DNA of 64,000 nt. Origin: Nitrosopumilus sp. GTDB taxonomy: Archaea > Thermoproteota > Nitrososphaeria > Nitrososphaerales > Nitrosopumilaceae. Below the pieces are notes generated by a model. That model did no database searches. It had not been told where the DNA came from and worked only from the letters and a program-made list of their open reading frames with translations. The position numbers and the translations under genes were made by a program. This document shows positions 709 to 21,194 of this stretch, in pieces (within the stretch, counting starts at the first letter, position 1; every line of letters starts with the position of its first letter). The stretch spans positions 124,001 to 188,000 of the forward strand of contig JAOTWS010000003.1 in assembly GCA_029862745.1 (NCBI GenBank). The letters are read 5' to 3'.

Positions 709-1527
709 TTATCTTTCTAACTCTTTGATTTTTGCTGCCGTAATCTCAGCTGCTTTTTTTCCAGAATACAACATCGAACCAAATGTAGGTCCCATTCTAG
801 CCAATCCGTGAGTTTCAGTAACTGACATTCCTGCTGCAACTAATCCGGGGTAAACTTCACCTGTTTTATGTACAACATGTTCTTCACCATCATTAACATG
901 CATTGGTTCCATTCCTTTCCATTTTGTCAGGCCTCTATCAACTAGTCTCTTCACAGCCACAGAGTCATGACCTGAAGCATCAATAATCATTTTAGCTTCA
1001 AGTGCAACTGGATCAACACAGGTAATATTACGTGGTAGTGCTGAAACGGGCATCCAATTAACAACAATTCCTGTCACTCTACCATTTTTTAATACCAAAT
1101 CATCAAATTTTGTAAGTTGAAGAAATTTTACACCTGCATCACAAGCTGCTGCAATTAATTTTGATACGGCATGAGGTCCAGGCGTTAAGTATAATCCATC
1201 TGCAACTTTTTTGTACGGTATACCTAATTCATCCCAAAATTTTTGCGCAGGTTCTCTTACAGTTACTGGATTCATCATATATCCACCTAACCAATAACCT
1301 CCTCCCAGATAGTTATTTTGTTCAATGACAAGAACTTTGAAACCCATATTAGAAAGGTCTCTGCTTGCAGTTAACCCTGCAGGTCCTGCACCAATTATGA
1401 TGACATCGGAGTCTGCTCTATCAATTAATACCTCATGAAATTCGTTTGCTATTGCACGTGTAATTTCGACTTCACGTACATCTGTAAATATTTTAGATGA
1501 TTGCTCTGCAATGGTTACTTTTTGCAT
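709..1527 (-). CDS. thi4: Thiamine thiazole synthase Thi4, Cys-type
   Basis: Makes the adenylated thiazole precursor of thiamine from NAD and glycine in the cytoplasm. An N-terminal Rossmann segment with GAGPAGLTA binds the dinucleotide. It is followed by the glycine-rich GGGYWLGG region and a C-terminal GxxxARMGPTFGSM segment typical of the family. In the active-site loop the sequence is ITCVDP with Cys170. In yeast THI4 the equivalent Cys donates its own sulfur (single turnover), whereas methanogen enzymes have His there and use sulfide. I chose ATG 1527 because GAAAGGA lies upstream of it; an in-frame ATG at 1551 would add eight residues. The gene is divergent from the siroheme reductase. 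Confidence 0.93.
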   Translation of the reverse strand: MQKVTIAEQSSKIFTDVREVEITRAIANEFHEVLIDRADSDVIIIGAGPAGLTASRDLSNMGFKVLVIEQNNYLGGGYWLGGYMMNPVTVREPAQKFWDELGIPYKKVADGLYLTPGPHAVSKLIAAACDAGVKFLQLTKFDDLVLKNGRVTGIVVNWMPVSALPRNITCVDPVALEAKMIIDASGHDSVAVKRLVDRGLTKWKGMEPMHVNDGEEHVVHKTGEVYPGLVAAGMSVTETHGLARMGPTFGSMLYSGKKAAEITAAKIKELER

Positions 1528-1685
1528 GGCGTTGTTTCCTTTCGTGAACAATTAATACTTTCCCACAACTTTTTTTAAAAAAAATTAGGTCACACTAATA
1601 ATTTTGATTACTCATGATGTGTAAGAATAGGAAAATTATGTACTTTGATGAAATTATTTCTCCTAAAATACCCAAATATCAAAAA

Positions 1686-1692
1686 TTTATAA
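1686..1692 (+). promoter_or_regulatory. TATA box of the nitrite/sulfite reductase gene
   Basis: TTTATAA lies 26-32 nt before the TTG start at 1718, the spacing expected for an archaeal TATA element driving a leaderless transcript. No Shine-Dalgarno-like sequence precedes the TTG, which fits leaderless initiation. Confidence 0.6.
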
Positions 1693-1717
1693 CCAAACTA
1701 AAAGAAATTTCATTGTA

Positions 1718-3526
1718 TTGACGTCATCTGATCTTAAACAATATACACCAGATTCCACCAAACCCAAAATTAATTGGGCTAGAATTGAGGAAGCTGACAA
1801 TTTTGCTAAAACTGTAAAACTGTTCCGCCAAGGAAAATATGATGAGGCTAGTTTTAGACGATTTAGACTTCAACATGGAGCATATGGTACCAGAATGACT
1901 GGGGATTATGCGATGGTCAGAATAAAACTACCTGCAGGGGAAATTTATCCAAATCAATTTGAAAAAATATCTCAACTCAGCGAACAGTATTCTATAGGCA
2001 GTGCACATTTTTCAACTAGAGAAAACATTCAACTTCATTGGGTAATTCTTGAGGATGTTTCAGAAATTTTTAGAGGCCTGTCTGAAGTAGGATTAACATC
2101 AAGAGAAGCATGTGGTAACTCTGTTAGAAATGTAATGTGCAGTCCATTATCAGGTGTTTGTACTAACGAAGAATTTGATTCAACTCCGTATGCACTTGCA
2201 ACTGCAAGGTTCTTTTTAAGAAATCCAATGGCCCAAAACCTTCCACGTAAATTCAAATTTAATTTTACATGTTGTGAAAAACATGGGATGGTGAGAATGG
2301 TCGATGTAGGGTTAATTCCACAAATTCGAAATATTGATGGTTCATCCCAACGTGGTTTTAAGATATTTCTTGGGGGTGGACTGGGAAACAAATCTTATGT
2401 TGGACATCAATTGGAGGAATTTACTCCTGATGAAGATTTACTTTATACTTCTATTGCTGTAATGAGGATATTTGATAGGTTAGGAGATAGGAAAAATCTT
2501 GCAAGAAATAGAATGCGCTATCTGGTAAATGATATGGGATGGGAAAAATTTCAAAACCTTGTTTTCAAAGAACGTGCGGTGGTAAGAGCTACTCAATCCA
2601 TAATAACTCAACTAGATGTTGACCTCACTCCAGATAAAATCAAACGACCGATTAGAATTTCTGATGAGAGTGGCGCACCCACACCAGACGGATTTGCTAG
2701 ATGGGTAAAAACAAACACTGTTAAACAATCTCAAACTGATTACTGTTCTGTATTTATCACTCTAGAAGCAGGAGATATCACTGCAAGTCAACTTAATGCA
2801 TTAGCTGATATTATTCGTGAATTTTCATCTGAGGGAAAGGCGAGATGTGGGTTTGTACAAAATGTTGCATTGCGATATGTTCATGAGGACGACTTACCAC
2901 GCCTATATTCTAAACTACTTGAAGTTGGGCTAGCAAAATCGGGTGCATTAACCATGACGGCCCCTATTGGATGTTCTGGAACTACTTCATGTAATCTTGC
3001 TCTGACAAATTCTCACAGACTAGCAAAAGAAATTCAAAGAAAGTTTCTTGAACTAAAACTTGATGAAGATAACGATCTAAGTGATTCATCCATTAAGATT
3101 AGTGGGTGTCCTAATTCTTGCGGGCAACATGGAATTGCAACTATAGGATTCTTTGGCGGAGGGGGTCGTGTTGGGAAAGACATGTATCCAAATTATCAAA
3201 TGTCTTTAGGCGGACGTTCTGACGGCGATACTATGTTGGGTGTAACATGTATTAGAGTTCCTGCAAAAAGAGTGATACCTGTAATTCTAAAAATTATTGA
3301 AACATTCAAACAAAACAAGAAAGATGATGATACTCTAAAATCATGGATTCATAGAATTATAAATGGAAATGAAGATTCGGCTATAAAATCCATTAATGAT
3401 ATTAAAAAAATATTGGAGCCACTGATCATTCCACCTACAAAAGAAAACGATCCGGACTTTTATCTGGACTATGGTAGCGATACAAGTTATCATACAAAAA
3501 CCGGAAAGGGTGAATGTGCTGCTTGA
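1718..3526 (+). CDS. Siroheme [4Fe-4S] nitrite/sulfite reductase (ferredoxin type)
   Basis: A 602-residue assimilatory reductase that takes six electrons from ferredoxin to convert nitrite to ammonia or sulfite to sulfide. It shows the two-fold repeat of the family: a ferredoxin-like half domain near residues 75-140, the first siroheme domain, a second half domain near 345-410, then the cluster ligands. These are Cys419-x5-Cys425 and Cys464-x3-Cys468 within GCSGTTSC and GCPNSCGQHG. Start is TTG 1718, behind a well-placed TATA box. The rhodanese gene overlaps its stop codon, which favours a sulfur role (sulfite reductase). Motifs alone do not separate nitrite from sulfite reductases, so both remain open. 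Confidence 0.9.
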   Translation: MTSSDLKQYTPDSTKPKINWARIEEADNFAKTVKLFRQGKYDEASFRRFRLQHGAYGTRMTGDYAMVRIKLPAGEIYPNQFEKISQLSEQYSIGSAHFSTRENIQLHWVILEDVSEIFRGLSEVGLTSREACGNSVRNVMCSPLSGVCTNEEFDSTPYALATARFFLRNPMAQNLPRKFKFNFTCCEKHGMVRMVDVGLIPQIRNIDGSSQRGFKIFLGGGLGNKSYVGHQLEEFTPDEDLLYTSIAVMRIFDRLGDRKNLARNRMRYLVNDMGWEKFQNLVFKERAVVRATQSIITQLDVDLTPDKIKRPIRISDESGAPTPDGFARWVKTNTVKQSQTDYCSVFITLEAGDITASQLNALADIIREFSSEGKARCGFVQNVALRYVHEDDLPRLYSKLLEVGLAKSGALTMTAPIGCSGTTSCNLALTNSHRLAKEIQRKFLELKLDEDNDLSDSSIKISGCPNSCGQHGIATIGFFGGGGRVGKDMYPNYQMSLGGRSDGDTMLGVTCIRVPAKRVIPVILKIIETFKQNKKDDDTLKSWIHRIINGNEDSAIKSINDIKKILEPLIIPPTKENDPDFYLDYGSDTSYHTKTGKGECAA

Positions 3527-4320
3527 CAGAATCAGGCAAAATCACAACAGATGTTGATTCTTTACGATCAGAAATTAGAGATAAAAGTGTGAGAGTAATT
3601 GATGTTAGAAGAGAAGGAGATTACAAACAAAGTCATATCCCTACTTCTGTAAATTTACCTTTAGCAACTCTCTTATCTGATGATAGTCCTGAACAAGTTT
3701 TAAAAATTGTAACTTCAATGGGTATTGATGATGAACTCCCAGTAGTTGTCTACGACGATACATTTGGTGCTTTGGCTTCAAGAGTTGCTTGGACATTAGA
3801 ATACATAGGACATTCTAATGTAACATTGCTTGAAACTACATACAGTCATTGGAAATCCCTGGGATTAGAAACGGATTCTCAAATTCCTGACATTCAAAGT
3901 AAAGAGCATTCTATGCATTTACATCCCGAAATATTGGCCACCTCTGATTATTTAGAAAATGCAAAAACAAAAGATAATGTAATTTTAGTAGATAATCGAG
4001 AGCGATTGAATTTTCTTGAACAACATATACCAAATGCCATTAACATTCCTTATCGAACTCTGGCAACAAAAGATAAGATTTTGCGTTCCAAAGACGATAT
4101 GAAAAGATTATTTGATAATCGAGGCATCACTGGGGATTCAGAGATAATCACTTACTGTGGTAGTGTGGGTACATTGTCAGGTTTGGCATACTATGCCTTG
4201 AAATCTGTAGGACTACCAAATACAAAATTATACGTTCGTTCTTTTAAGGAATGGAAAAATCTTCAGAAACCCACAGAAAAACAAGAAGATGCAAATTATT
4301 GGGATTTATCTGCAGAGTAA
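3523..4320 (+). CDS. Thiosulfate sulfurtransferase, two rhodanese domains
   Basis: Tandem rhodanese protein, about 265 residues, that transfers sulfane sulfur via a cysteine persulfide. The N-terminal domain (about 8-120) has Asp in the loop where the Cys would be (VVVYDDTFGA) and is presumably inactive. The C-terminal domain (about 135-255) carries the catalytic loop CGSVGT with Cys212. An ATG at 3514 would add three residues, but AGGGTGA abuts that ATG, whereas it sits about 9 nt before TTG 3523. TTG 3523 also overlaps the upstream stop as TTGA, so I prefer it; translational coupling with the siroheme reductase is likely. The stop codon abuts that of the convergent TPR gene. Confidence 0.88.
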   Translation: MTESGKITTDVDSLRSEIRDKSVRVIDVRREGDYKQSHIPTSVNLPLATLLSDDSPEQVLKIVTSMGIDDELPVVVYDDTFGALASRVAWTLEYIGHSNVTLLETTYSHWKSLGLETDSQIPDIQSKEHSMHLHPEILATSDYLENAKTKDNVILVDNRERLNFLEQHIPNAINIPYRTLATKDKILRSKDDMKRLFDNRGITGDSEIITYCGSVGTLSGLAYYALKSVGLPNTKLYVRSFKEWKNLQKPTEKQEDANYWDLSAE

Positions 4321-5442
4321 TTAAGAGGAAATTTCATTCCGGAGTTTTTTCGTAACAGTACCTTCTATATTATCAAACAGAACCAACATCTTGTCTTTAT
4401 TTTCAATCAAATAGTCTTTGCCCCTATCTTTCAATCGTATTTTCCATAATCTAATCTCTCTATGTTCATCAAAGAAATTTTCAATCATTTGTTCTCCTGA
4501 TTTTGCAGGATCTATGAACACATCAAAAATCTCGATGGTTTTTTCAATGTCTTCTCCTTCAATAGATTCTTTAACGGCATGTATAGCTTGGCTTAGTTCT
4601 TTCAAATTTTTAACAGGTTTTGGTAATGTCTTTTTTGTAATTCCAAACAAACCTTTCTTTTCTTTACCAATTTTTTCTGCAACATTTGGTGCAAGATCAT
4701 AAATTGGAATTTTACTTAGACCATCACGTTTTTCATTTTGAACAATTAATCCTTTTTCTAATAATTTCTTTAAAGCGTTATCTGCATCAGCTTTGTCTAA
4801 AAATGTTGTCCAAACAATTGCACCTAATGTATGATATCCTTGTCTAATAGATTCTAAAACAACAACTTCTTGAATTCTTTTGAAACCTTCTTCAATTTTC
4901 ACATTCATGAAATCCTTATCTCTAATTGATTTTCTTGCATTTTTAACATCAATCTCAATTGAGCGTTTTAATGACTCTAATGATTCTGGTACTTGATTTA
5001 ACAAAGATAAGAAACATGCTTGATTATACCATGCCATCCCATATGTTGGATCTGATTCTATTGCCTTCTGAACTGCATCTAATGCTTTAGAATAATTTTT
5101 CTGTTCATAATGGACTAATCCTTTTAGATTCCATGCTTCGGGATTTGTTACATCTATGTCTAAAATTCTGTCGTATATTTTCAATGCCTCACTATGATCA
5201 TCAATGTGGAATCGGGCATACCCCAATTTCATCAGAGTTTCTATGTTATTAGGATCAATTCTTAATGCCTGTTCAAAAACTTCTATGGCTTCTTCAAGTT
5301 TTTCATCTGCCATTAAATTGATTCCACGTTTGAATAATTTTTTACGATTGTAATCTGAATCAACAATACTTGTCTCTTCTTTAGCGATCTTCTCTGGTTT
5401 CTCTGCTACTTTCTCTGATTTTTTTCTAAATAATTTTTTCAC
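4321..5442 (-). CDS. TPR-repeat protein with C-terminal winged-helix-like region
   Basis: A 373-residue soluble protein. After a Lys/Glu-rich N-terminus (1-30) come about four tetratricopeptide repeats (about 35-170) with the usual alternation, such as AWYNQACFLSLLNQ and GYARFHIDDHSEALKIYDRI. A region around 195-250 looks like a small winged helix (DNALKKLLEKGLIVQNEKR), followed by an alpha-helical C-terminus. TPRs mediate protein-protein contacts; the partner is unknown. Its stop codon is directly adjacent to the stop of the convergent rhodanese gene, with no spacer. No enzymatic motif seen. Confidence 0.85.
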   Translation of the reverse strand: MKKLFRKKSEKVAEKPEKIAKEETSIVDSDYNRKKLFKRGINLMADEKLEEAIEVFEQALRIDPNNIETLMKLGYARFHIDDHSEALKIYDRILDIDVTNPEAWNLKGLVHYEQKNYSKALDAVQKAIESDPTYGMAWYNQACFLSLLNQVPESLESLKRSIEIDVKNARKSIRDKDFMNVKIEEGFKRIQEVVVLESIRQGYHTLGAIVWTTFLDKADADNALKKLLEKGLIVQNEKRDGLSKIPIYDLAPNVAEKIGKEKKGLFGITKKTLPKPVKNLKELSQAIHAVKESIEGEDIEKTIEIFDVFIDPAKSGEQMIENFFDEHREIRLWKIRLKDRGKDYLIENKDKMLVLFDNIEGTVTKKLRNEISS

Positions 5443-5546
5443 TAGGACAAAATGTGTTTTTATCTAGATAAATACTATCTTAATTGAGCCTAATGGCACA
5501 TATCTGAAACTTGGGATGAGTTTAAGCGATCTAAATACAAAAATAC

Positions 5547-7352
5547 TTGAAATATACACAATCGTTTGTGTCATCTCAGCCACGAATAGAAATTCAAGGA
5601 CAGGCACCTTTCAAGCAATCAGGTGTCTACGAAGTCCAAATTGCAATTACTGAAAGTAAGCCTTCAGATGAGGTAATCCGAACAAAGCAATTCTCGTCTT
5701 TATGGAAAGGTAATTTTCATCTTCGGGTCAAAGAAGGGATGTTTTCTGAAACCCTTGGATCTCCATCTAATCCACTTCCTTCAGCAATTGCAAGTCTGGA
5801 TAAAATTTGGATTATAGTCAATGATCAATTCTCTTCATTACATTCTGTATTTGTTGTCCCTTTAGCAAGATCATCGCCATCTCAAACAGAAACTAAATCT
5901 ATCGAGGATCAACCAGTCAAGCGTTCTACGAAAACAAGTACTGAGTCTTCTCATTCCTATGGAAGTAGAGGTCCTGAAGGTCAACCTGGTCCACCAGGAG
6001 ATAAAGGTCCGACTGGAGTTATTGGTCCACCAGGAGATAAAGGTCCGCAGGGTCCAATTGGTCCACCAGGAGATAAAGGTCCGCAGGGTCCAATTGGTCC
6101 ACCAGGTCCAATTGGAGATAAAGGAGTTACAGGAGATAAAGGAGTTACAGGAGATAAAGGAGTTACAGGAGATAAAGGAGTTACAGGAGATAAAGGAGTT
6201 ACAGGAGATAAAGGAGATAAAGGAGATAAAGGAGTTACAGGTCCAATTGGAGAGAAAGGCGATAAAGGTCCAACAGGACAAATAGGCGATAAAGGTCCAA
6301 CAGGATTGAAAGGTCCAATTGGAGAGAAAGGCGATAAAGGTCCAACAGGATTATCGGGTGACAAAGGTCCAACAGGATTAAGAGGGTCTCCAGGAGAAAA
6401 AGGGGATAAAGGTCCGCAGGGAGTTATTGGTGATAAAGGTCCAACAGGATTAACAGGTCCAACAGGTGATAAAGGTTCAACAGGATTATCTGGTGTTCAA
6501 GGAGAAAAAGGGACTCAAGGTCCATCAGGTCCAATTGGGGATAAAGGCGAAAAAGGTCCAATTGGAGAGAAAGGTCTGCAGGGTCCAACAGGATTATCTG
6601 GAGATAAAGGATTAACAGGTTCCACAGGTCCAATTGGGGATAAAGGCGATAAAGGTCCGCAGGGTCCAATTGGAGAGAAAGGTCCAACAGGACAAACAGG
6701 ACCTTCGGGAGAGAAAGGTCTGCAGGGTCCGCAGGGTTCTGCAGGAGCTAAAGGGTTAACAGGAGTACCAGGACCACAAGGCGAAAAAGGCGATAAAGGT
6801 CAGCAGGGTCCAATTGGAGAGAAAGGCGTTAAAGGTGCTGAAGGACCAATCGGAGAGAAAGGTTCGCAGGGAGCACAAGGTCCGCAGGGTCCTGCAGGAG
6901 CTAAAGGGTTAACAGGAGTACCAGGACCACAAGGCGAAAAAGGCGATAAAGGTCCGCAGGGTCCAATTGGAGAGAAAGGTCCAACAGGACAAACAGGACC
7001 TTCGGGAGAGAAAGGTCCGCAGGGTCCGCAGGGTCCGCAGGGAGAACGTGGTCCAACAGGACCTTCGGGAGAGAAAGGTCCGCAGGGTCCGCAGGGGATT
7101 CAAGGTCCGCAGGGAGAACGTGGTCCAACAGGTTCTATTGGGCCTAGCGGTGATCAAGGCCCAGTAGGAGGACAAGGTCCAGTAGGTCCGCCAGGTCCAA
7201 GAGGTCCGCCAGGTCCGCCAGGAGAAAAAGGTCCATCAGGTGGAATGTCTCCCGAACAAAAAGCACTTTTCAAAGATTTGTTAGAAATTCTAACAAATAA
7301 AAATATGATTTCAACGGAAGAACAAATTAAATTGATGAGTTATCTTTATTGA
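5547..7352 (+). CDS. Collagen-like Gly-X-Y repeat protein
   Basis: A 601-residue protein in three parts. Residues 1-138 form a non-repetitive, probably globular domain ending in a Ser/Thr-rich linker. From Gly139 to Gly565 there are 142 uninterrupted Gly-X-Y triplets, mostly GPx, GDK, GEK, GPQ and GPT. About 36 residues follow the repeat. The Lys-Gly-Asp/Glu combinations stabilise triple helices in bacterial collagens that lack hydroxyproline. I see no signal peptide or membrane anchor, so location is unknown. Start is TTG 5547; GTG 5568 is a good alternative, since TAAATAC at 5531-5537 is about 35 nt upstream of it. Open frames on the opposite strand here are by-products of the repeats. Confidence 0.9.
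6114..6203 (+). repeat. Five perfect 18-bp tandem repeats in the collagen region
   Basis: The unit ggagataaaggagttaca occurs five times in a row without mismatch, encoding GDKGVT five times. It continues into three GDK triplets and a further GVT. Such identical units point to recent slippage or unequal exchange, so copy number probably varies between strains. Confidence 0.9.
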
Positions 7353-7636: not shown

Positions 7637-7849
7637 TCATCGTCTTTTTGCTGCTTTTCTCTTTGGAGCTGCTTTGCGTGTTGCTGCTTTTCTCTTTGGA
7701 GCTGCTTTGCGTGTTGCTGCTTTTCTCTTTGGAGCTGCTTTGCGTGTTGCTGCTTTTCTCTTTGGAGCTGCTTTGCGTGTTGCTGTTTTTCTTGCAGTAG
7801 ATTTAGATGTTGATCTACGTTTAGTTGCAGCTTTTCTCTTTATAGCCAT
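7637..7849 (-). CDS. Lys/Ala-rich histone H1-like basic protein
   Basis: A 70-residue protein made almost entirely of Lys, Arg, Ala, Thr and Pro, with no acidic residue. After an N-terminal MAIKRKAATKRRSTSKST segment it has four copies of an 11-residue unit (ATRKAAPKRKA). It resembles eukaryotic histone H1 tails and bacterial H1-like proteins (Hc1/AlgP type), so it probably binds DNA or RNA nonspecifically. It has no folded domain. The 33-bp DNA repeats encoding it are identical. It stands alone between long AT-rich spacers. Expression level and partner are unknown. Confidence 0.75.
   Translation of the reverse strand: MAIKRKAATKRRSTSKSTARKTATRKAAPKRKAATRKAAPKRKAATRKAAPKRKAATRKAAPKRKAAKRR
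7650..7781 (-). repeat. Four identical 33-bp tandem repeats
   Basis: The unit starts gctgcttttctctttggagc on the plus strand and repeats four times with a period of 33 bp. It encodes the 11-residue basic unit of the H1-like protein in frame on the minus strand. Confidence 0.92.
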
Positions 7850-17294: not shown

Positions 17295-17720
17295 CTAATT
17301 GAATTTAGATTTACAACGAGTACAATAACCAAACAGTTCAAAACGACTCTTTACAATAAGATATTTTGATTTTTTTGTAGCTCTATTTTGGATCTCTTTT
17401 AGTGAATCCTCATCAACATCATCTATTTTACCACAATTCATACAAACTAGATTGAGATGCTCATCTGTATGTACATCAAATCTTGTTTCCCCTTTTACTT
17501 CAATCTCACTTACTAATTTTTTCTCTTTTAGAAGATCAAGTGTCTTGTAAACTGTAGAGAGACTTATCATGGGATATTTTTTTTGAATGGTCTTGTGAAT
17601 GTGCTCTGCGCTGGGATGATCCTCGGTTTTTAAAAGATAATCTACTATTGCTATTCTTTGTGGTGTAATTCGGAATCCTTCTTTACGTAGCAATATAACT
17701 AGATCTTCTAATTGCTGCAT
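17295..17720 (-). CDS. fur: Fur/PerR-family metalloregulator
   Basis: 141 residues. The N-terminal winged helix (about 1-80) has GFRITPQR and the recognition segment SLSTVYKTLDLL. The C-terminal dimerisation domain has the structural zinc site Cys93-x2-Cys96 and Cys133-x2-Cys136 and a His/Asp-rich regulatory site around 83-90 (DVHTDEHLN). It would repress iron- or peroxide-responsive genes. Whether it is Fur or PerR type cannot be settled by eye. Two palindromes lie in its upstream region, which suggests autoregulation. Confidence 0.93.
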   Translation of the reverse strand: MQQLEDLVILLRKEGFRITPQRIAIVDYLLKTEDHPSAEHIHKTIQKKYPMISLSTVYKTLDLLKEKKLVSEIEVKGETRFDVHTDEHLNLVCMNCGKIDDVDEDSLKEIQNRATKKSKYLIVKSRFELFGYCTRCKSKFN

Positions 17721-17984: not shown

Positions 17985-18155
17985 ATGAGTGAGCATTCTT
18001 GTAGAAGTGTTTGTGGATATTATGATGCAAATGCAAAATTTAGAAACTCAGGAAATAATACATTTAGAAAATATTGCATTATATGTGATCTAGAATTAAT
18101 TTCTAGATATTCAATGTGTCCTTGCTGTCACAAATCTTTTGAGGGTGATAAATGA
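17985..18155 (+). CDS. Small zinc-ribbon protein
   Basis: 56 residues beginning [19 protein letters not shown]. It has a Cys-x3-Cys near the N-terminus, then Cys-x2-Cys (YCIICDLE) and CPCC near the C-terminus, a layout typical of a large thaumarchaeal family of tiny Cys-rich proteins. I chose ATG 17985 because GGGGGTGG precedes it; a longer frame back to 17856 has an unconvincing N-terminus. It lies downstream of the 19-bp palindrome. Function unknown, probably nucleic-acid or protein binding. Confidence 0.6.
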
Positions 18156-18159
18156 TGGG

Positions 18160-18800
18160 GTTTTCGTGTAAAGGTGTATGTGATGGATTTAAAGGAGATA
18201 AAATCCCAAATAATAAAACCTGAACTGATGCTCCTGTTGCATACCAAAATGGATCACTGATCCCATATTGATAAGCAACAGTAGATAACTGAAGCAATGT
18301 AGCGGCCATGTCCATGCTGGAACAATGGCTGCAGCAGTAAGACCGGTTTTGATGGTTCTTCCTGCAGTATTAAACATCTCAGAGGTTTGGCTAACACCAA
18401 GATACTTTACTTTGATTTTTACCTCAATTGTGATAATTACGGCAAAAACCATACCTAATCCAACAACGATGACCCAACCAATCCATTCAGATAATGCTTC
18501 ACCTACTGCAAATCCTTCAGTAATGGCACCTGCAGCATACCAAAAAGCACCTCCCAATCCAAATTCATAAGTTACAGTGGAGGATTGTAAAAGAGTTGCA
18601 GCCCATGTCCAAGCAGATACGATAGATGATGCAATTAATCCAGTTTTGATGGTTCGACCGGCTGTATAGAACCATTCAGATGTTTTTCTAGTACCAAACC
18701 ACTCTGTCTCAGCCTTTACCATTAATGTGACAGATAATGCATTATTAGGCCAACTCCGATTAATACAAGGTATTCTAATTCAATCTCATTTAATCCACGA
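18160..18800 (-). pseudogene. Chimeric remnant of two urea-transporter (SSS/DUR3-like) 5' ends
   Basis: Minus-strand frames carry the N-terminal signature of DUR3-like sodium:solute symporters twice. The first copy (about 18800-18540) has [34 protein letters not shown] and GGAFWYAAGA, preceded by a degenerate first helix in another frame. It then fuses to a second start region (EGFAVGEALSEWIGWVIVVG) and repeats [16 protein letters not shown] and AWTW. A one-base loss at 18305/18306 then shifts the frame, and [19 protein letters not shown] and VQVLLFGIL continue in the next frame before decaying at PSHTPLHE. The remaining 500 or so residues of the transporter are absent. This is a remnant, not a gene. 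Confidence 0.8.
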
Positions 18801-18865: not shown

Positions 18866-19081
18866 CTAGATGATAATAAATGACAGATATGTTTCAAAGT
18901 GATTTGCCATAGTGTTTTCAGACATATCTATATGTGACAAACATATCTTTGAAAATTCATTAATATGTTTTTCACATAGTTTGATTACCGTATTATCGGG
19001 TGTAATATTTAATTTTCTTCAACAGTTTGTGTACCACTTTAAATACTTTCTTGAGTTAATTGGCATATTCTCTATGTACAT
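18866..19081 (-). pseudogene. Short ORF interrupted by an in-frame TGA
   Basis: From ATG 19081 the minus strand reads MYIENMPINSRKYLKWYTNC, then TGA at 19019-19021, then another 50 codons (RKLNITPDNTVIKLCEKHIN and on) to a TAG. The sequence looks protein-like but matches no family I know. It could be a small gene inactivated by one stop. An 84-codon plus-strand frame (18912-19166) overlaps it and looks less natural (very Phe/Ile-rich). Low certainty either way. Confidence 0.25.
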
Positions 19082-19293
19082 CAGAAAAATCTTTGATGAA
19101 AAAAGGCAAAAAGAATTCTCAATTATCAAGAATTTGTTTAATATTTCTCTCAAAAACTTCAGTTAATTGGTTGAATTCTAAATTTTCTTTTATCAAGTTA
19201 TATCTAGAATAATTTTGTATAAAAAAATACCATGTCAATCCTTATACGGTAAAAAATATGTTAAAATTAGAATAAATTTGCTGAGACATTACA

Positions 19294-20964
19294 ATGAAAG
19301 CTTCTGATTTGTTTGTTAAATGCCTGGAAAATGAGGGTGTTGAATACATTTTTGGTATTCCTGGTGAAGAAAATGCTGATTTTATGATGTCATTATCTGA
19401 ATCTAAAATTAAATTCATTTTAACACGTCATGAACAAGGTGCTGCTTTTATGGCTGATGTGTATGGACGGCTTACCGGAAAAGTAGGCGTATGCCTTGCA
19501 ACTTTAGGTCCAGGCGCTACTAATCTTGTTACAGGGGTCGCCAATGCAAACATGGACAGATCAAGATTACTTGCAATTACAGGTCAAACTGATTCTCATC
19601 TACTACATAAAGAATCTCATCAAAACATGGATGCAATTACTTTGTTCAAACCTATCACCAAGTGGAACTGGTCAATACGTAATCCTCAAAACATTCCAGA
19701 AATCGTAAGAAGAGCATTCAAAATTTCACTTGAAGAAAAACCTGGCGCAACACATATTGAATTACCGCAAGATATTGCAAAGAAAGATGCTGACATTCCA
19801 CCAATAGAACCACAACCAGTTTTTAGATCTGAACCAAATGAACAGTTGATTAAACAAGCAGTAAAGATAATTCTTGAAGCCAAAAATCCCGTGATTTTTC
19901 TTGGAAATGGATGTGTTCGTGAAAATGCCAGTCCCCACATAAGAAAATTTGTAGAAAAAACAGGCATTATTGCCATGAACACGTTTATGGGAAAAGGTGT
20001 AGTCTCAGATGACTCGCCTCTGCATTTACACACTATTGGAATTAAAGATGCGGATCATGCTTTGCTTGCAATGAAATCAGCTGATGTGGTAATTGCTGTA
20101 GGTGTTGATCTCGTGGAATATAGTCCAAAGAATTGGAATTTAGACTTTAGCAAGAAAATAATACATATTGATTTTACTCCCTCTGAAGTATATACTTACT
20201 ACAGACCAATGGTTGAGATCGTTTCGGATATTGGATATGCAGTTGATGCCATTTTGGAAGAATTAGAACTGCAAAAAAAAACAAATCCAGAATTAGATGC
20301 ATTCCCAAGAAAAGAAATTCCCAAATTATTTAAAAAAATTATTAATGAAGTAGATGAAAGAAGGGATTCATTTAATCATAATATGGCATTTCCCATAAAG
20401 CCTGAGAAGTTAGTAATCGATGTTCGCAATGCATTAGGCGAAAAGGATATTGTGTTATCTGATGTAGGTGCACACAAACTTTGGATTTCTAAAATTTACA
20501 AAACATATCAGCCAAATACATGCATAATTCCAAATGGTTTTTGTTCAATGGGATTTGCCTTTCCTGGAGCCATCGCTGCAAAGATAGTTCACCCTAACAG
20601 AAATGTGGTGGCGATGTGCGGTGATGCGGGGTTTTTGATGAACATACAAGAGCTTGAAACGGCAGTACGTCTAAAACTTTCAGTCATTACAATAGTATGG
20701 TGTGATTGTGACTTGGGAATGATTTCAATGAAACAAAAGAATGAATTTGGTAAAAGTGTTTTTACTAAATTTACAAATCCTGATTTTATCAAATTAGCTG
20801 AAAGTTTTGGAGCAGTAGGATTTGTCGTAAAGTCTACTAAAGATTTTTCAAAGATTTTAGAGGATGTAAAAAAAATCAAAGACAAACCAGTGATAATTGC
20901 AATTGATGTGGACTATTCAAGGAATAATGTTTTGTTAAATGACAGTAATTATGAAAATGTATGA
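19294..20964 (+). CDS. Acetolactate-synthase-like ThDP enzyme
   Basis: 556-residue thiamine-diphosphate enzyme of the acetolactate synthase/AlsS group: two pyruvates give acetolactate plus CO2. The N-terminal PYR domain has GIPGEEN and the catalytic Glu in RHEQGAAFMAD. A central domain spans about 190-325. The C-terminal PP domain has CGDAGFLMNIQELETAVR with the ThDP/Mg motif (GDAGF ... Asn). No ACT regulatory subunit gene lies nearby, unlike ilvBN, so this may be the single-subunit catabolic or an accessory form. Other ThDP decarboxylases of the same fold remain possible. It stands alone with a long 5' spacer. Confidence 0.85.
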   Translation: MKASDLFVKCLENEGVEYIFGIPGEENADFMMSLSESKIKFILTRHEQGAAFMADVYGRLTGKVGVCLATLGPGATNLVTGVANANMDRSRLLAITGQTDSHLLHKESHQNMDAITLFKPITKWNWSIRNPQNIPEIVRRAFKISLEEKPGATHIELPQDIAKKDADIPPIEPQPVFRSEPNEQLIKQAVKIILEAKNPVIFLGNGCVRENASPHIRKFVEKTGIIAMNTFMGKGVVSDDSPLHLHTIGIKDADHALLAMKSADVVIAVGVDLVEYSPKNWNLDFSKKIIHIDFTPSEVYTYYRPMVEIVSDIGYAVDAILEELELQKKTNPELDAFPRKEIPKLFKKIINEVDERRDSFNHNMAFPIKPEKLVIDVRNALGEKDIVLSDVGAHKLWISKIYKTYQPNTCIIPNGFCSMGFAFPGAIAAKIVHPNRNVVAMCGDAGFLMNIQELETAVRLKLSVITIVWCDCDLGMISMKQKNEFGKSVFTKFTNPDFIKLAESFGAVGFVVKSTKDFSKILEDVKKIKDKPVIIAIDVDYSRNNVLLNDSNYENV

Positions 20965-21194
20965 CTTTAGCATTGAAAAACTTATAATAATATAAACATA
21001 CAAAATAAAAAATTATTTAAAATCTATAAATTTTTCTAATAATTATCAATACGTTGACACAATTGTTCAGATATATTTGAAAGTTAATTCTCATTCTATA
21101 TAATGAGAACATATTCTTGTATTCATTAGCTTATGCTAATTAGGTCACTCTAATTTTCAATTAGTTTAAATGAAATTTTCATGTGATATGAGAT

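Follow-up and report, generated by a model that had tools for sequence, protein, structure and literature searches.

Two fused DUR3 urea transporter stubs in a Nitrosopumilus genome: the probable scar of a deleted urease island

Gene content of the locus

Nitrosopumilus is an ammonia-oxidizing archaeon. The window analyzed here is a 64,000-nucleotide stretch of one contig of a Nitrosopumilus sp. draft genome; the remnant described below spans 18199-18776, entirely on the minus strand (Table 1). The flanking genes order as ArgS - PerR - ZnR1 - ZnR2 on one side and ALS on the other, an arrangement shared by the window and the two related genomes G045 and G074. The Fur/PerR-family regulator has 87-89% amino acid identity to its counterparts in these genomes, and intact ZnR2 orthologues of 59-65 aa occupy the same place there as the truncated gene in the window. 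The ALS gene, of the PRK08322 type, is itself of limited distribution: only about 21 of the 95 genomes of the genus carry it with at least 69% identity; most of the others encode only an ALS paralogue with about 30-35% identity.

Table 1. Features of the locus and of the corresponding place in related genomes
Feature	Position	Strand	Remarks
Fur/PerR-family regulator, intact flank	17295..17720	-	PF01475, E 4e-33
ZnR1 zinc-ribbon gene, intact flank	17985..18155	+	86-93% aa identity to G045/G074
ZnR2 zinc-ribbon gene	18155..18211	+	First 19 codons only, cut by J1
J1	18199..18211	-	ATTTGGGATTTTA, tract common to DUR3-B and the zinc-ribbon gene; L075/L140 alignments overlap
DUR3-B (urease-proximal urea transporter, 'Copy 1') stub	18199..18537	-	Signal-peptide AAGA to ...LLFGIL
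J2	18524..18537	-	14-bp direct repeat TGCTGCAGGTGCCA, in both intact genes; proposed urease-removing deletion site
DUR3-A (distal urea transporter, 'Copy 2') 5' stub	18524..18776	-	About codon 9 to FWYAAGA
J3	18773..18786		DUR3-A 5' end against ALS-upstream flank
ALS-upstream flank	18912..19166	+	Weakly conserved reading frame; G045, G074 and G009 have a comparable stretch at this site
Acetolactate synthase large-subunit-like gene (ALS), intact flank	19294..20964	+	NF006187, E 1e-210, above cut-off
20-mer TTGGCGTGCAAACCAATTAC	L139 ~4706-4725; L140 ~2071-2052; L075 ~7208-7189	+; -; -	Outside the window

An open reading frame in the remnant (18189-18722, minus strand, 177 aa) opens at an internal ATG and reads, in translation, ...FWYAAGA|ITEGFAVGEALSEW... 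Its first 68 codons come from the beginning of one urea transporter gene and the next 70 from that of another, and the second copy continues past the break of the reading frame in another frame. In a search of the genus (95 genomes), one DUR3 gene, of about 750-870 aa, aligned with residues 1-68 at up to 94% identity, and a different DUR3 gene, of about 660-690 aa, with residues 61-139 at up to 92%; the E-values of about 1e-34 to 1e-39 for both halves exclude a chance match. On the minus strand, window positions 18772-18524 represent the 5' part of the first gene (DUR3-A) and 18537-18199 that of the second (DUR3-B), fused and frameshifted. The initial annotation had read this segment as the starts of two different DUR3/SSS paralogues joined after FWYAAGA, with a one-base deletion in the second copy. 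Alignment with the DUR3/SSS proteins of urease-bearing relatives assigns the two halves to different genes as proposed, the junction lies where it had been placed, and the deletion is real, located at about 18308 within a TGGG run of DUR3-B. An additional 1-bp deletion is found at about 18741, near the start of DUR3-A. Searches of the 177-aa frame against Pfam and NCBIfam returned zero family matches, and the complete SSS core is not encoded in this frame, which consists of frameshifted 5' stubs only; as judged from these comparisons, it is to be classified as a DUR3 remnant and not as a member of the family.

Urease clusters with two DUR3 genes in related genomes

The closest intact copies of both genes are carried by G072, a metagenome bin from San Francisco Bay, on two contigs. 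JAOTUX010000108.1 (L088) holds DUR3-A at 1023-3332, and JAOTUX010000028.1 (L075) encodes ureF, E, A, B and C, DUR3-B (3901-5883), an MFS protein and ZnR2. Both intact genes contain the SSF domain (PF00474) and match the PDB chains 9j7c, 9x5u and 9vim ('Urea-proton symporter DUR3') with E-values of 1e-167 to 1e-194; by this similarity, the source genes of both stubs are assigned as DUR3 urea transporters. The DUR3-A stub has 98.0% nucleotide identity to the L088 gene over 250 bp and 90% to the gene of G010 (protein E about 1e-36); the DUR3-B stub has 96.2% identity to the L075 gene over 343 bp and 81-86% to those of other Nitrosopumilus.

The locus was drawn from eight relatives for comparison of gene order. 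In six urease-bearing ones (G010, G093, G008, G040, G019 and G044; loci L041, L042, L044, L045, L047 and L048), the two stub genes bracket the urease operon and lie on one strand, in the order ParB-like, wHTH, DUR3-A, accessory genes (ureD, G, F, E and, in most cases, a UreH-like permease), ureA, ureB, ureC, DUR3-B and a 174-aa protein; apart from DUR3 and ureC, the genes were named by sequence and order. The strand and order of the DUR3 genes flanking urease in the relatives are the same as those of the stubs, with the flanks in G072 divided between the two contigs. In these six genomes, the site in DUR3-A that corresponds to the junction is separated from that in DUR3-B by 8.7-10.2 kb, with the urease operon in between, so that the earlier description of the two as adjacent SSS genes does not hold.

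The urease alpha subunit (PF00449) is encoded in 33 of the 95 genomes of the genus and is absent from the genome that contains the window. Likewise, a search of this genome for the SSF domain detected neither an SSF gene nor an intact SSS transporter. When the closest urease contig served as a DNA query, no trace of ureF, E, A, B or C came up, the only matches being the stub and one 35-bp AT-rich stretch. Loss of urea uptake and its variation between Nitrosopumilus genomes, as first suggested, agree with these results, but the loss extends beyond uptake: a look for urease genes elsewhere in the genome found none, and at least one more deletion occurred at the 3' end of the remnant. The 35-bp AT-rich stretch, located 3' of ALS (20976-21010), is 89% identical to positions 8711-8746 of L075, directly 5' of the MFS gene.

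The presence of two dur3 copies of different origin, and their link to the ure genes, have been described in marine ammonia-oxidizing archaea, where experimental validation of the intact dur3 has been called for (PMC10753782). As in the marine Nitrosopumilus cluster of that study, one dur3 lies near ureC and the other is distal, and the stubs in the window are the 5' parts of these genes; unlike it, the window lacks the cluster, and what is left of the two transporters amounts to about 253 and 339 bp, fused to each other.

Probable position of the island

Several lines of evidence indicate where the cluster probably stood. L075 ends in ZnR2, which is convergent with DUR3-B, and the arrangement in the window is the same. 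G074, which has no urease, retains ZnR2 together with the decayed 5' end of an MFS gene that, in L075, sits between ZnR2 and DUR3-B. Furthermore, an intergenic 20-mer (Table 1) is identical at the corresponding place in G045, G074 and L075 within otherwise diverged sequence; this 20-mer is absent from the window. Given the ZnR2 end of L075, the MFS remnant in G074 and the shared 20-mer, it appears that this locus in the relatives was occupied by the island or, at a minimum, by its B-side flank. The closest clade mates (G045, G074 and G009) have no trace of DUR3 at the locus, and G074 looks like a case of separate loss at the same spot. No complete, intact island was found at the locus on one contig, the two contigs of G072 ending before the ALS side; presence of the island in the ancestor of the whole clade would rest on the MFS remnant of G074 and the shared element. 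G009 contains ArgS and ALS and lacks PerR and the zinc ribbons, a pattern suggesting that genes have been gained and lost repeatedly at this locus.

Two other readings of the site were considered and rejected. Loss at the usual position of the cluster, between ParB-wHTH and the 174-aa protein followed by UspA as in G010 and G093, is contradicted by the match of the window flanks to the PerR-ALS locus of G045 and G074; in addition, the genome lacks any match to the 174-aa protein and has only a 38% paralogue of the wHTH protein. For tRNA-associated integration, a tRNA was looked for at the site and none was found.

Some further features of the compared loci can be mentioned. In G009 (L181, G009:C52), the ALS gene and its upstream flank are about 1.66 kb apart (4220-5881), which is part of the same picture of gain and loss. 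A hairpin, CTAGAGAGA...TCTCTCTAG, is located upstream of the 20-mer in G045 and L075. The G045 locus (L139, G045:C28) has a GC content of 39-45%, and the window, G074 and the G072 contigs have about 33-34%.

Decay and origin of the stubs

When the differences between the stubs and the G072 genes were polarized with other intact copies as outgroups, leaving out positions outside the junctions, the window side showed 7, 4 and 2 changes at codon positions 1, 2 and 3, respectively, together with the two 1-bp deletions; the G072 side accounted for one or two changes. Among functional copies, about 82% of the differences fall at codon position 3. In view of the window-side excess at positions 1 and 2, the stubs are thus a young pseudogene that drifts without constraint, and this pattern of decay implies that the loss of urease and urea use was apparently recent.

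The origin of the island is a separate question, and the possibility deserves serious consideration, at somewhat below even odds, that a G072-like lineage was its recent lateral source, with recombination at the PerR-ZnR flank bringing it in before its rapid loss, a scenario that is compatible with the deletion mechanism outlined below. Of 71 four-fold degenerate sites in the stubs, 2 are different in G072, against 49 of 117 for a control gene from the window (Fisher P 2e-10), and the nucleotide identity of the stubs to G072 is 96-98%, against 68-82% for the other window stretches that align to it. However, L075 and L088 might not belong to G072 at all but be mis-binned contigs from a urease-positive sister of the species studied here, which would reduce the history to a simple within-species loss. 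The ZnR2 end of L075 has 84-85% identity to G045 and G074, similar to that between G045 and G074 themselves (86%), in an alignment of only 120 bp, whereas the G072 control gene is only 72-75% identical to those of G045 and G074. This similarity of the ZnR2 end leans toward mis-binning or a transfer that took the flank along. Other window-like contigs were sought in the G072 bin, and none exceeded 82% identity over long stretches, in a test of low power with a query of about 53 kb; comparison of GC and GC3 of the G072 contigs did not discriminate. A broader and rather speculative generalization, which we hold to be doubtful, is that the urease island turns over rapidly as a module in this genus: recombination in shared flanks would have brought it into this lineage from a distant Nitrosopumilus, and short-repeat deletions would have excised it again within a brief part of the lineage's history, with G074 representing an independent loss.

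Junctions and the proposed mechanism of loss

The remnant is most likely the scar of a urease and urea-uptake island removed by deletions between short repeats (probability of about 0.88). J2 is the main junction. The 14-mer TGCTGCAGGTGCCA encodes, in DUR3-A, the AAGA of FWYAAGA and, in DUR3-B, the AAGA of a signal-peptide-like region, VFAAGAITEG. It is identical in both G072 genes, and a single copy is kept in the window, which follows DUR3-A to the left of J2 (50 of 51 bases) and DUR3-B to the right (42 of 42). For breakpoints placed at random in these two DUR3 genes, the mean shared length would be 0.7 bp, and 12 bp or more would be reached with P 2.5e-5. At J1, homology to DUR3-B stops at 18199 and homology to ZnR2 of G074 and G045 extends to 18211; the shared tract comprises at least 9 bp (ATTTGGGAT) with the G074 ZnR2 as a proxy, and up to 13 bp in the window. 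In L075, the two points joined at J1 are about 4.9 kb apart and enclose the rest of DUR3-B, the 174-aa protein, a PII-like protein, the MFS protein and most of ZnR2. At J3, where DUR3-A homology ends at 18772-18776 and homology to the G074 flank starts at 18786, inspection of 18773-18786 revealed no clear microhomology, and this junction is therefore not claimed as a short-repeat deletion.

Read from the two contigs of G072, the ancestral order would have been PerR - ZnR1 - ZnR2 - MFS - PII-like - 174-aa gene - DUR3-B - ureC/B/A - ureE/F/G/D - DUR3-A - wHTH - ParB-like, followed by the ALS flank. A deletion between the copies of TGCTGCAGGTGCCA, one inside DUR3-A and the other at the end of the DUR3-B signal peptide, about 9-10 kb apart, would have fused the two transporter starts and, as it spans the operon, eliminated every urease gene at once. 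Through a second deletion, between the short homologies represented by ATTTGGGAT, the genome would have lost what was left of DUR3-B, along with the 174-aa, PII and MFS genes and the greater part of ZnR2, and the DUR3-A side would have been cut back to about codon 9 at J3. The leftover sequence is non-functional and drifting. The former presence of the island at this place and the order of these deletions are presumptive, as is their cause, for which slippage between the repeats or short-homology end joining are the candidates.

Deletion between short repeats or microhomologies is a general class of mutation. The locus resembles products of such deletion by slippage or alternative end joining in that a tract of 14 bp lies exactly at J2, with one copy retained, and a tract of 9 to 13 bp probably does so at J1. 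It differs in that J3 lacks such homology, and here the mechanism is deduced from the sequence.

The initial annotation had attributed both the fusion and the end of urea uptake to recombination between two adjacent SSS genes, taken here as a homologous exchange. Two SSS genes are indeed fused, and they are about 70% identical at the nucleotide level in the stub stretch, but in the relatives they stand far apart around the urease operon. Moreover, FWY-AAGA of A is joined to VF-AAGA of B, that is, non-homologous positions that share a 14-bp repeat, which indicates a deletion between chance repeats and not a homologous crossover; the latter would yield one in-register chimaera instead of two tandem N-termini. 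Given the spacing and the register of the junction, this explanation is very unlikely and was rejected, with the fusion of two genes standing and the crossover in homologous parts not. An assembly artefact, conceivable in a draft assembly of 17 contigs, is extremely improbable considering the decay mutations: at sites conserved elsewhere, the stubs alone have about 13 substitutions and two frameshifts. In addition, J2, and apparently J1 as well, coincides with a short tract common to the joined partners, and the genome, 99.9% complete, has no SSF or urease gene elsewhere. That the 177 codons left open from the internal ATG make a functional chimeric membrane protein can be practically dismissed in view of the lack of any Pfam or NCBIfam match, the two frameshifts, the absence of most of the transporter core and the concentration of changes at codon positions 1 and 2.

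Urea use among ammonia-oxidizing archaea

Among marine ammonia-oxidizing archaea, the ability to use urea defines niches and is patchily distributed. The way in which one lineage lost this trait can be followed at the locus to the single base: a single deletion between 14-bp sequences in the transporter genes that bracket the operon would be enough. As an event, the loss of a cluster between short repeats is ordinary; this instance is unusually clear. Description of such a scar was not found in the literature searched, the coverage of which left out most subscription journals. Passages of one study report that ureC and dur3 occur in no more than part of the Nitrosopumilus (PMC12686405). The presence of urease alpha in about a third of the genomes compared here is in line with this patchiness in natural populations; those passages deal with gene frequencies and not with deletion scars, whereas the window captures one loss at the level of bases. 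The interval between PerR-ZnR2 and ALS is a place to compare the presence, absence and scars of urease between strains.

Apart from this locus, the window has a 601-aa ORF (5547-7352, plus strand) for a collagen-like protein, here in an archaeon; its DNA repeats (5979-7241) form an array of 9/18/36-bp units, which translate into G-x-x triplets (GDKGPTG-like). This frame is followed by a near-perfect 33-bp tandem array (7648-7792; 4.4 copies, 99%).
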